Positions 11,427 through 15,876 of a stretch of DNA of 24,404 nt are shown in pieces. Source of the DNA: a virus. The translations under genes and the position numbers were made by a program. The notes beneath the pieces were generated by a model, which was not told the origin of the DNA, made no database searches, and was given only the letters and a program-made list of their open reading frames with translations. The stretch spans positions 1 to 24,404 of the IMG/VR virus record IMGVR_UViG_3300020395_000097, one strand, 5' to 3'. Numbering within the stretch: the stretch's first letter is position 1; every line of letters starts with the position of its first letter.

Positions 11427-12125
11427 TTAATTATCAATTACAAAGCCTGAGTCATCTAACTTGGCTTTACCTTTTGCTTTCAGACCTACTACTACATTAG
11501 TCTCATCTAAAAATCTCATATCGTGCTTGTCTCCATCTATAACCTTAACACCTTTGAAGGTAGAAGGCAAGTCTTTATTACGGAACACTACAGCTTTATT
11601 ATAAGGCACACTATCAAACAACTTAGCATACTTTTCTGCAGCTTCACTATAGCTCCACGTTAAATGATAGTTAGATATGTGATCTACTTTTCTTGTAGGT
11701 ATCTTAGTGTAGTCATAGAACTGCACCTGTGGAAACATCTCAAATATATTTTGGCCACACTCAACCATAATCTTTTCCCATTGTATATCACTCGTGCCAT
11801 TCAATCTAATACAAGGCTTCTTACCTTTACGATCACAAGCACCGATAAACTTTATAATATCCAACACTAGTTGAGACATAAACTCAGCCCTATCATTTAA
11901 GAATAGATCAGTCTTTCTCTGCCTAGCATTTTGAATACTAGGATATACACCGCCTAATCCTGCTGTATTTAAACAAGCATCCTTACAACCTGCAATATTT
12001 TGATACGGACATATCTTAGTATTAACAGGTCGCATATGTAGAATACACGACCAATACTCACCTTGTATCTCATTGCTCTTATCAATCTTAGGATTGCTGT
12101 TTACTGATAGTAGTTTATAAGTCAT
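11427..12125 (-). CDS. GP88-like phage protein with Cys cluster
   Basis: 232 residues. I recognise the pattern of the phage GP88/DUF7227 type from memory: Cys39, Cys47, Cys51 (KICPYQNIAGCKDACL), a nearby RQRKTDLFL, PCIRLNGTSDIQW (104-116), FPQVQFYDYTKIP (131-143), YHLTWSYSE (153-161), AVVFRN and VIDGDKHDMRFLDE...VVVGLKAKGKAKLDDSGFV. The repeated strand-loop units look like a barrel, and the three spaced cysteines could hold a metal or Fe-S cluster; neither is proven. The molecular function of this family is unknown to me. It is the last gene of the repeated-start cluster, overlapping the preceding gene by 11 nt. Confidence 0.8.
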   Translation of the reverse strand: MTYKLLSVNSNPKIDKSNEIQGEYWSCILHMRPVNTKICPYQNIAGCKDACLNTAGLGGVYPSIQNARQRKTDLFLNDRAEFMSQLVLDIIKFIGACDRKGKKPCIRLNGTSDIQWEKIMVECGQNIFEMFPQVQFYDYTKIPTRKVDHISNYHLTWSYSEAAEKYAKLFDSVPYNKAVVFRNKDLPSTFKGVKVIDGDKHDMRFLDETNVVVGLKAKGKAKLDDSGFVIDN

Positions 12126-12944: not shown

Positions 12945-13293
12945 TTTGTTTAAAAATTTTTAAAGTGGCTAGAAAAAAGATGCTTCTCTTTCTCTCTCAA
13001 GCAAGTCAGCTTTATATAGTAAAGACTATCTCATCTATACTCTAACTCTTTATAGTTTTCTAATTACTATGTGATCTGATTTTCTTTATGTTATCACTCA
13101 TCACATACCACAAAAACTAATGGGTAGTTGGGTTAAAACTTAATGATAGTTCATTAACTACTAATTTCTCTATCAACCCTCGCATTAGTTATATATCTAT
13201 CCGTCTGCGACCATCTTAGCCCTGCTTAACTCTTATGCAGCTTTTATTGTTAGCGTTGGCTCTCATGGATAGATATATCTTTCTCTCTCTCTC
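12945..13293. other. Non-coding stretch with a long inverted repeat
   Basis: About 350 nt with no credible gene on either strand. It contains pyrimidine runs (CTCTTTCTCTCTC), the 12-bp inverted repeat at 13191-13278, and a small hairpin TAGTT-CATT-AACTA (13148-13161). No consensus promoter is visible, although some promoter should drive the cluster at 12927; TATAAA-like boxes without -35 partners are present. Confidence 0.5.
13191..13278. ncRNA. Candidate structured RNA closed by a 12-14 bp stem
   Basis: ATATATCTATCC (13191-13202) and GGATAGATATAT (13267-13278) are perfect complements; on the plus-strand RNA a G-U and a U-A pair extend the stem to 14. Inside, AGCC/GGCT (13218-13221 with 13258-13261) and CTGC/GCAG (13222-13225 with 13237-13240) could form a stacked inner helix, leaving unpaired conserved-looking stretches. 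The inner 62 nt are richer in G and C than the flanks. No tRNA T-loop is present. No known ribozyme or riboswitch recognised. Confidence 0.4.
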
Positions 13294-13467: not shown

Positions 13468-13507
13468 TTTTTTACTCCTATATTTGTAGGTTTATAAAAT
13501 ATCTTTG

Positions 13508-13532
13508 TCTCTCTCTCTCTCTCTCTCTCTCT
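13508..13532. repeat. (TC)12 microsatellite
   Basis: Twelve uninterrupted TC units plus one T, read as (GA)n on the gene strand. It starts immediately after a perfect TTGACA (13537-13532, minus) and ends before TATAAA-type boxes (13496-13491). Shorter GA-type runs also occur at 13281-13293. Dinucleotide tracts of this length are unusual in a compact phage genome and can change length by slippage. Confidence 0.85.
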
Positions 13533-13567
13533 GTCAATTAAAAATTAAAAATAAAAAAATAAAAAAA

Positions 13568-13607
13568 AGAGAAACTATTTTACGTTTGAATGTAAGATAA
13601 TTTCTCT
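13568..13607 (-). terminator. Strong intrinsic terminator of the two-gene cassette
   Basis: A 15-pair hairpin (13568-13583 with 13592-13607, one C/A mismatch, 8-nt loop) follows the stop of the gene at 13626. On the minus strand it runs straight into a long T-rich tract (eight T, then A, then more T runs). Its core, 13576-13601, is the left copy of the 26-bp inverted repeat whose partner is at 14870-14895. Confidence 0.8.
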
Positions 13608-13625
13608 TTGTTTTAATTTTTATTA

Positions 13626-13841
13626 TTAAGATTTTTCAGGGATTCCATAAACAAATCTATTAGATTCTTTATCGTAATAATACTTATGATTTCTTTTATT
13701 ATAAATTTCTATTATTTCTTTTTTGTATTGTTCTATAAGTTCTGAAAATCCATTGTCTGTAAGATGTCCATCACTATAAGATAAAATAATATTATTCATA
13801 TTTTTAGTCATTCGGTTTATTTGTTTTTTATGCCTTTCCAT
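13626..13841 (-). CDS. Hypothetical protein of the flanked cassette
   Basis: 71 residues, basic and Tyr/Asn/Lys-rich (MERHKKQINRMTKNMNNIIL..., ELIEQYKKEIIEIYNKRNHKYYYDKESNRFVYG). GGAG 6 nt before ATG. It is the distal gene of a two-gene unit, ends 19 nt before an intrinsic terminator, and has no recognised family. Weakly helical with no membrane span. Confidence 0.65.
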   Translation of the reverse strand: MERHKKQINRMTKNMNNIILSYSDGHLTDNGFSELIEQYKKEIIEIYNKRNHKYYYDKESNRFVYGIPEKS

Positions 13842-13910
13842 TTTTTACTCCAATTATAAAGATTGATTTTTTAAAGGTTATTAAATGCTCATCAACTGTT
13901 ATTAGATCAT

Positions 13911-14633
13911 TTATTTTTCTTTCGATTTCTTATTCTTGGCGGTGGTTTTCGCATTGCTTTTTGGAGCAAGTGAGAATTGCAATCTAAGATCATTTAAAGC
14001 TTTATCTAACTGCTTCAGTTTTTTCTGATCGTTTGATCGTTCCGCATGATTAAGAAAGGATTTAATCAATTTAATATTCTGTTCTGAATGATTATATTCC
14101 TCAGATTTAGAATTTATCAATTGATCTCTTAGAGCTTTTCGAACATCACCGATTGTTTCAAATTCAGACAATATATTTTTGTATATGGTTGTTCTGTTAT
14201 TCGTTCCAACGATGTGATCTTTTAATGAATCGTTGTATTCAAAATCAACATCAACAATTCCATTATTAAAAGCTCTTTTTATATCGGAAAAGAATTGACT
14301 GAATTTCTTTGGCTGTTGCCGTCTATTAGAAATTTCATCTTGCTTTCCTTTTCCTTTTCTTTTAACAGTCCATTGGAAAGAATCTGCAATTAGTTCTCTA
14401 ATCAATTCAGCCTGATCAACTGTTTGAATATCGAATGTTTTACGGATTTCATTCCATAGGTAATCGTCAAAAGATTTAACCTTCTTTTCAGCATTTTCAA
14501 AGTCTATTGAATCCTTTGTAAATGCTTCAATGATTGGGCGGATTCTTTTGAGGAATCCTGTCTTTTTTTGCTTGGTTGTGGTTCTGATATTTCTATCAAT
14601 TTTAAGTGCTTCAGAAGCTGTTTTAGTAGCCAT
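13911..14633 (-). CDS. Hypothetical basic protein of the flanked cassette
   Basis: 240 residues from ATG 14633 (AGGA 9 nt upstream); a further ATG at 14660 would add nine residues with a poor SD. Highly charged: the first 30 residues (KTASEALKIDRNIRTTTKQKKTGFLKRIRP) and the tail (KTTAKNKKSKEK) are basic, the middle is helical. Segments such as QFFSDIKRAFNNG and TIYKNILSEF give no known domain. The basic ends suggest DNA or RNA binding, an inference. Its flanks (inverted repeats, own promoter candidate, terminator downstream) suggest an acquired gene. Confidence 0.65.
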   Translation of the reverse strand: MATKTASEALKIDRNIRTTTKQKKTGFLKRIRPIIEAFTKDSIDFENAEKKVKSFDDYLWNEIRKTFDIQTVDQAELIRELIADSFQWTVKRKGKGKQDEISNRRQQPKKFSQFFSDIKRAFNNGIVDVDFEYNDSLKDHIVGTNNRTTIYKNILSEFETIGDVRKALRDQLINSKSEEYNHSEQNIKLIKSFLNHAERSNDQKKLKQLDKALNDLRLQFSLAPKSNAKTTAKNKKSKEK

Positions 14634-14818
14634 AATATATATTCCTATATTGAGGATCATTAAACAGTCTCAAAGCATCTAACAACCTTTAAAGAATCAA
14701 TCTTAATAATATGTTGGTCATTGTCTTGTATGGTTTTTTTAATCTACTGATGCTTTATGACAAGTCTTAATCAGCCGTTCCCTTTAGTGTCGTTCAATAA
14801 CCTATTCCGACTATTAGT

Positions 14819-14846
14819 ATTATCCATACCTAGAAATGTATATCAA
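14819..14846 (-). promoter_or_regulatory. Candidate promoter of the cassette
   Basis: Minus strand TTGATA (14846-14841), 16 nt, GATAAT (14824-14819): five of six matches in each box. It lies just inside the right-hand inverted repeat and about 185 nt before the gene at 14633, with no ORF between. Weaker than the other promoters in the window. Confidence 0.45.
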
Positions 14847-14869
14847 TAGTTTCGAAATATGAATATCAG

Positions 14870-14895
14870 ATTATCTTACGTTCAAACGTAAAATA
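14870..14895. repeat. Right copy of a 26-bp inverted repeat
   Basis: This block matches the reverse complement of 13576-13601 at 25 of 26 positions. It is itself nearly palindromic (TTACGTT-CA-AACGTAA at its centre), so it can also form a hairpin. Together the two copies bracket 1.27 kb with two genes. Confidence 0.75.
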
Positions 14896-15319
14896 ATTAT
14901 TTCATAAACGATTGTTTGTATTGGGAATATGACAAGGCTTTCAAGTATATATTTTGAAGATTTTAAATGGGTTTCTTACTTGTAAACTTGATAAATTTGG
15001 AAAGGTTTCAAGTTGTGCTGCACGTGCCTAATTTTATATATAACTAAAAGTTATAACTTTATAACCTTATAGTTATATAGTAGGTTTATAACACTTGGGA
15101 ATATGTAAAGAATGAAAAGTTATAAAGAGGCATGGGCAGGTGGCCACCCCCCTCTCCCCTATATATATATAGATGTCGAACATTTTAAGAAACTTTTAAC
15201 TCGTTAACTTGATAAATGCGGCATACCTTATAATATATATATGCGCTATTCCGCTATATATTGAGATATCAAAGGGGAGGTAGTTAGTTAGGTATTTAAC
15301 CCCGGGAGGCTTAAAGAAT
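14896..15319. other. Non-coding switch region with palindromes and repeats
   Basis: No credible gene. Seen in order: repeated words TTGGGAATATG (14919 and 15094 regions) and AACTTGATAAAT (14986 and 15205 regions); the 14-bp palindrome AAAGTTATAACTTT (15047-15060) with three TTATAAC words (15051, 15059, 15086); a GC-rich spot with palindrome GGTGGCCACC (15139-15148) running into a C-rich stretch; and a hairpin at 15237-15261 (ATATAT-GCG, loop, CGC-T-ATATAT). These features fit a regulatory, origin or packaging region. Confidence 0.5.
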
Positions 15320-15396: not shown

Positions 15397-15425
15397 TTGA
15401 CAAGTTCGTTAACTAGACCTATAAT
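15397..15425 (+). promoter_or_regulatory. Consensus rightward promoter of the head operon
   Basis: TTGACA (15397-15402), 17 nt, TATAAT (15420-15425): 12 of 12. It diverges from the leftward promoter at 15320-15348, the two -35 boxes being 48 nt apart. The expected start (about 15432) coincides with the ATG of the small terminase gene at 15433. Confidence 0.92.
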
Positions 15426-15432
15426 ACAAACT

Positions 15433-15876
15433 ATGGCTAACACATACTTACAAGAAACAAACAATAAAGATAGAACTTTAACAAACAAACAACAAAAGTT
15501 CTTAGATTGTTTAATAGAACACAATGGTAATGCAAAACTAGCAGCCAAAGAAGCAGGTTATAGCGGTAATCACTATCAAGTTGTAAAGTCTTTAAAGAAT
15601 GAGATCATAGATCTCGCAACGGACATCTTGGCCAACAGCGCACCACAAGCAGCCCTCAAGATGGTAGACATAATGAATACTGATATGCCGATACCACAGG
15701 TAGCTAATAAGCTACAAGCAGCTCAAACAATCCTAGATCGTGTAGGTGTTGTTAAAAAAGAACGAGTAGAAGTAGATCATAAAACAAATGGTGGTGTATT
15801 TATACTACCAGCAAAGAAAGAAGTAGTAACCGTAATTGAAGGAGAATATACAGAGCAAGACGATGATGAAGAGTGA
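15433..15876 (+). CDS. Terminase small subunit
   Basis: 147 residues. LTNKQQKFLDCLIEHNGNAKLAAKEAGYS (16-44) is the HTH-containing N-terminus typical of small terminases, followed by helices and an acidic tail (GEYTEQDDDEE). It should recognise the packaging site and feed DNA to the large subunit. An upstream TTG (15397) keeps the frame open, but that codon is the -35 box. ATG 15433 has no Shine-Dalgarno and sits at the predicted transcription start, so the mRNA is probably leaderless. First gene of the rightward operon, 2 kb before the large terminase. Confidence 0.8.
   Translation: MANTYLQETNNKDRTLTNKQQKFLDCLIEHNGNAKLAAKEAGYSGNHYQVVKSLKNEIIDLATDILANSAPQAALKMVDIMNTDMPIPQVANKLQAAQTILDRVGVVKKERVEVDHKTNGGVFILPAKKEVVTVIEGEYTEQDDDEE

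Follow-up and report, generated by a model that had tools for sequence, protein, structure and literature searches.

Complementary leader and trailer arms enclose the first early protein gene in a subset of HTVC103P-related marine phages

The 24,404-nucleotide stretch of viral DNA analysed here (the window) contains an early protein gene whose ribosome-binding site, open reading frame (ORF) and stop codon are enclosed by two complementary arms, and in related phages the pairing of such arms is maintained in RNA across diverged modules. In part of this set the arms are associated with boxA. We consider it somewhat better than an even chance (a probability of about 0.58) that the main gene of this first early unit is expressed from an mRNA whose coding region is clamped by an rRNA-like leader-trailer helix. 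Leader-trailer helices and the rrn boxA have hitherto been treated as features of stable RNAs, and a search of the open-access literature yielded no paper on leader-trailer helices around phage protein genes. The same layout around such genes would show phages protecting or processing their first mRNAs via the host rRNA machinery. It would also provide a genomic signature to look for in other phages, namely ORF-hugging arms with a G-U bias, preceded by boxA.

The early unit and the helix around its main gene

The window encodes a DNA polymerase, a primase-helicase, the small and large terminase subunits and a portal protein. By large terminase, its closest isolates are the Pelagibacter phages HTVC103P, 104P and 115P (64-66%); HTVC103P and HTVC115P, which are HMO-2011-related, likewise have early genes divergent from terS. 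In this HTVC103P-related marine phage, the two-gene unit studied here comes first among the leftward early units and lies back to back with the terminase small subunit gene terS (15433-15876, plus strand), which served as the anchor for locating the locus in relatives. The best promoter for the unit's strand is a strong sigma70-type sequence at 15348-15320 (minus strand; TTGACA-17-TATAAT, 12/12), a consensus match only, which points away from the divergent terS promoter (15397-15425, plus strand, 12/12 consensus). A preliminary description of the unit had credited it with its own promoter at 14819-14846. This weaker candidate is indeed there (minus strand; TTGATA-16-GATAAT, 10/12), but promoter-like sites number 11 in the region against 12.9 in shuffles. 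The same description also gave the unit an intrinsic terminator. The left copy of the outer repeat does lie within a long A+T-rich, terminator-like hairpin followed by T-runs (13564-13611, minus strand), an arrangement that recurs in L004 and L105, but a terminator scan omits the hairpin because it has too few G-C pairs.

The main gene is an ORF of 240 codons (13911-14633, minus strand) for a basic protein (net charge +15) with homologues in L004, L015, L114 and L105. It is a real gene, with a dN/dS of 0.17 against a relative and changes by codon position of 18/6/48. A 71-aa ORF (13626-13841, minus strand) lies between the trailer arm and the outer palindrome. Both proteins were previously described as unrecognised, and neither has a family match: Pfam, PHROG, PDB-sequence and fold searches returned nothing for the module proteins. 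Homologue searches with the 240-aa protein found few members and gave only noise among isolate phages. AlphaFold predictions were of low to modest confidence (pLDDT 52 and 63); the model of the 240-aa protein (pLDDT 63), which the preliminary description had proposed as a check, is mainly helical, and no fold match was obtained.

The central feature of this unit, overlooked in the preliminary description, is an RNA-level helix around the ORF. Nested within the outer repeat is an inner inverted repeat of 48 nt (81%; 13853-13900/14663-14710), whose two arms sit precisely around the ribosome-binding site, the 240-aa ORF and its stop codon. The leader (5') arm (14663-14710, minus strand) pairs with a trailer (3') arm (13853-13900, minus strand) that begins 11 nt past the stop codon, through 39 Watson-Crick and 4 G-U pairs of 48; in the folded window transcript, 43 of the 48 arm bases are paired. 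Part of the trailer arm is repeated perfectly over 13 nt after the 71-aa ORF (13621-13633, minus strand); this copy can pair with 14699-14711 and may be due to chance. A group I or II intron or a known RNA family in the leader was also considered and rejected, as Rfam gave no relevant match.

Helices in related phages and selection on RNA pairing

We scored 1254 distinct ORFs from 177 loci for the best ungapped helix between the 150 nt before the start and the 150 nt after the stop, taking the flanks of different ORFs as the null. Ungapped scoring was chosen because whole-flank RNA duplex energies had no discriminating power. The 11 top scores (44-70) all belonged to module genes, namely those of the window, L004, L015, L021, L084, L024/L096, L036 and L051 and two genes of L117. 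The 99.9th percentile of the null was 38, with rare values above it (maximum 77) that we attributed to the pairing of one module with a related one. The sense score equalled or exceeded the antisense score in 11 of 11 top genes. Direct inspection added two more helices: that of L105 (53 nt, 7 G-U, 0 A-C) had been missed because its gene starts with TTG, and that of L114 had scored only 35.

In these relatives the first early gene, divergent from terS, carries an ORF-hugging repeat of quite different letters. Helix lengths range from 33 to 53 nt, and in the scored modules the distance from the stop to the trailer arm is 2-34 nt. The enclosed proteins belong to at least three families with little or no mutual sequence similarity; the modules of family A are homologous and thus not fully independent events. 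In L117, two neighbouring genes each have a private helix. That the clamp is kept in relatives despite near-complete change of both letters and protein suggests that it matters more than the 26-base outer repeat. The helix is a trait of a subset of related phages, found in only about 11 of the approximately 72 with enough upstream sequence. No ORF-hugging helix was found in the examined stretches of HTVC103P, HTVC115P, HTVC033P, CRP-235, CRP-1 and HMO-2011.

The mismatches within the arms indicate the level at which pairing is selected. Arms were chosen by strand-neutral alignment, and over eight modules the transition mismatches read in mRNA sense were 28 G-U against 2 A-C (p = 8.7e-7), or 23 to 2 without L117. 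A repeat selected at the DNA level, such as transposon ends, would give equal counts, and the G-U excess therefore argues that pairing is selected in RNA. The window by itself contributes 4 G-U against 1 A-C, and the case for RNA rests on its relatives. Within family C, both sides have changed in 4 of 37 pairs, and both pairing and covariation are lost when the partner is shifted by one to three columns. Minimum-energy folds of the transcripts include the helix.

Two further loci show related arrangements. In L010 (4986-6376), two genes form a unit within nested inverted repeats that are nearly perfect (43 and 37 nt), and the leader contains several additional long hairpins. This nested repeat is of a different kind, and a terminator precedes its trailer arm, which speaks against the leader-trailer reading; L010 was left out of the helix members. 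L117 (2900-4430, minus strand) carries an array of tandem small genes (94, 56 and 210 aa), and every one of them has hugging arms and a 3' hairpin of its own. The 210-aa protein of this array is SprT-like, and two units have identical arms around unrelated ORFs.

boxA and the likeness to rRNA precursors

The known model (PMC10250234) combines boxA with leader-trailer helices that surround the 16S and 23S rRNAs and are cleaved by RNase III; the boxA consensus is GYTCTTTAANA (PMC5725501). An exact rrn-type boxA, TCTTTAACAATTT, occurs in the leaders of L114, L024, L036 and L051, 101-106 nt before the start codon and shortly ahead of the leader arm. L015 and L007 match at 11 of 13 positions. The window leader has no clear boxA (best 9/13, p about 0.5), nor do those of L105, L021 and L084, and any step involving Nus factors is therefore not general. 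Module leaders account for five of the six exact 13-mer occurrences in 1.68 Mb (including L096, which is nearly a copy of L024); the sixth is elsewhere in L117, apparently inside a coding region. The rRNA operons of a Coxiella-like endosymbiont, Marinifaba and a marine gammaproteobacterium contain the extended 18-mer TTCTTTAACAATTTGGTA.

As a test of prediction, viral contigs were searched with a boxA 16-mer alone, giving 56 hits that were followed by an ORF. Apart from the members already known, these included two unrelated phages with the helix, each with an exact boxA. The helix of L318 spans 36 nt (32 Watson-Crick, 3 G-U, 0 A-C) and overlaps its boxA, and that of L293 spans 24 nt (22 Watson-Crick, 2 G-U, 0 A-C). 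In L293, complementarity also flanks a tRNA-like unit that follows another boxA.

As in rRNA precursors, long-range complementary arms tightly flank the product region and are selected as RNA, the duplex has a length that suits RNase III, and several modules place an rrn-type boxA shortly before the leader arm. Unlike rRNA precursors, the phage module wraps a protein-coding ORF with its ribosome-binding site, its arms diverge freely and the window copy has no clear boxA. Under the leader-trailer reading, the leader arm would pair co-transcriptionally with the trailer arm as the latter emerges. In the modules with boxA, bound NusB/S10 might tether the leader to the polymerase and counteract premature termination within it. 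By analogy with rRNA, RNase III could then trim the long duplex, or the duplex itself may shield both ends, and the outcome would be a stable, separately translated first mRNA, with the outer palindromes presumably in a regulatory role. A stronger version is possible, though we hold it only tentatively: that these phages copy the architecture of the rRNA precursor outright, with boxA loading the Nus complex and the helix folding and trimming the transcript around one early protein gene and, as it appears in L293, around a tRNA-like unit too. The first mRNA would then be self-contained and stabilised, with arms that are free to evolve as long as they remain paired.

Two observations on boxA leaders extend beyond the modules. 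The L293 contig is rich in tRNAs (21 by ARAGORN), and from 843-1300 and beyond it carries boxA, a tRNA-like unit, boxA, a 65-aa ORF and boxA in series; both boxA units have flanking complementarity. L225, L248 and L256 share a common boxA leader, TTCTTTAACAATTTGGAAAGTCGRAAYAGCATACC, without a strong ORF-hugging helix, and this looks like a widespread phage leader.

Outer palindromes, block exchange and other explanations

The 26-nt inverted repeat reported in the preliminary description is real, with 13576-13601 matching the reverse complement of 14870-14895 at 25 of 26 positions, and it extends to 29 nt at 93% (13573-13601/14870-14898). It is the only pair of its class in the window (26 nt, at most one mismatch, arms within 3 kb), and none of 40 second-order Markov shuffles has one. 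The arms are dyads in their own right, TTACGTTYRAACGTAA (16/16 in the right one, 15/16 in the left), and 'inverted' and 'direct' are hardly distinct for arms that are each palindromic. The 26-bp repeat is thus two copies of one palindrome and most probably not a pair of transposon ends. Neither copy has a strand of its own. The upstream copy (14870-14898; TTATTTTACGTTTGAACGTAAGATAA in gene sense) precedes the -35 hexamer of the weaker promoter candidate (14846-14819) by about 24 nt and forms the right boundary of the exchangeable module, while the downstream copy (13573-13601) is the core of the terminator-like hairpin. The alternative offered earlier, that both copies are terminator-like hairpins of one origin, is therefore half right, since one copy is in such a hairpin.

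The palindrome sequence is specific to each module type. L004 and L015 retain TTATTTTAC-N8-GTAAGATAA at the upstream palindrome, with a different centre. The two copies are inverted in the window and direct in L105, and their relative orientation is not fixed. When their mismatches are counted as for the inner arms, the outer repeats show no G-U bias; the lack of such bias and of a fixed orientation is what would be expected of DNA dyads. We suggest that these palindromes act as DNA-level regulatory dyads, one upstream of an internal promoter and the other reused as a terminator stem. Their sequence differs from module to module, and the factor that recognises them is probably either the encoded protein or a regulator of the host.

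Comparison of relatives shows that the module is swapped as a block, with its palindromes travelling along. L004 and L005 carry the same module without the 71-aa ORF, their protein being 88% identical. The L015 homologue of the 240-aa protein is more distant (28.6% identity, E 3.5e-20), and against the family profile those of L114 and L105 reach E 1.6e-56 and E 1.8e-10, respectively. L105 DNA is approximately 86-96% identical to the window outside the module, with a protein that is 27% identical and every cis element swapped for a different sequence on the same plan. Its upstream palindrome, TTATCACTTTCAAAAGTGAyAA, recurs inside a terminator hairpin with eight T, and a second small ORF of 64 aa, unrelated to the 71-aa ORF, occupies the equivalent place. 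On the right side, homology between the window and L105 resumes at the outer palindrome, which bears out the earlier view of a separate two-gene unit with ends marked by repeats. L007, whose terS is 99% identical, has a 195-aa protein related only in a short motif and three copies of its own palindrome. It is the presence in L105 and L007 of other proteins with their own palindromes that points to exchange as a block.

Such exchange could suggest the mobile cassette of the preliminary description, in which the 26-bp repeats are the ends of a small transposable or site-specifically exchanged element with two cargo genes. The clean right edge at the palindrome where the window and L105 differ, the yet different block in L007 and the coming and going of the 71-aa ORF are all in its favour. 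However, the module keeps one locus and one orientation, antisense to and upstream of terS, in all relatives found, and its repeats differ between modules with unconserved orientation. No recombinase-like protein was recognised in it, no target-site duplication lies beside 13573 or 14898, and instead of the clean presence or absence once anticipated we found no empty site, the closest relatives holding other modules. Ordinary homologous recombination in the conserved flanks explains the block exchange, and of the explanations weighed here we give a mobile element the least credence. The ultra-small mobile elements of mycobacteriophages (MPMEs) resemble the module in being small phage units that have inverted repeats and a functionally uncharacterised ORF; the module differs from them in its fixed locus and in repeats that are unconserved in sequence, and no empty sites were found for it. 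Inverted repeats flanking phage genes need not mark mobile elements.

Three other readings retain some appeal. The 240-aa protein may bind both palindromes as DNA, perhaps looping out its gene, with drifting specificity and a secondary role for the inner helix. Palindromes that change with the protein (window, L015, L105 and L007) while keeping their positions upstream of a promoter and in the terminator are consistent with this, as are conserved half-sites with a variable centre and the unbiased mismatches. Nevertheless, it leaves the RNA-level inner helix unexplained and no DNA-binding fold was recognised, which makes it unlikely as the main account. We find antitermination of the lambda N/nut kind somewhat harder still to accept. 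Here a fast-evolving basic RNA-binding protein would act at boxA and at cognate hairpins repeated in the early operon. Like N, the module protein is basic, strongly diverged and encoded first in the early operon, with boxA in several leaders and module-specific hairpins that co-vary with it; L021 and L084 even have same-orientation, boxB-like hairpins (CTTTCC-N6-GGAAAG) before and after the gene. Yet the protein is unrelated to N, twice its size and without an arginine-rich motif; the window has no clear boxA; its palindromes are inverted, lie partly at DNA positions and include one within a terminator; and lambda has no counterpart of the ORF-enclosing helix. Fold-back control as in hok mRNA, in which pairing over a long distance holds the full-length mRNA in an inactive or stable state until processing, seems slightly less plausible again. 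In both systems an mRNA pairs through its own 5' and 3' untranslated regions, and the leader arm meets a trailer arm just past the stop in predicted folds. The module helix is, however, much longer (33-53 nt), and its arms end about 15 to 50 nt upstream of the start, leaving the ribosome-binding site and start codon free and unmasked in the loop. The 240-aa product is also no toxin-like short ORF.

Several features beyond the left end of the unit may also be of interest. A (CT)n tract lies just past the unit's terminator (13505-13533), and L004 and L105 have (AG)n there on the gene strand. The non-coding stretch at 13189-13275 is conserved in L007 (103-169), where the region is otherwise different, and is possibly a structured RNA; ARAGORN detected no tRNA in it. 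Further along, 11427-12125 encodes a 232-aa protein of PHROG 1617 (unknown function), and homologues of the same family occur in several related phages.
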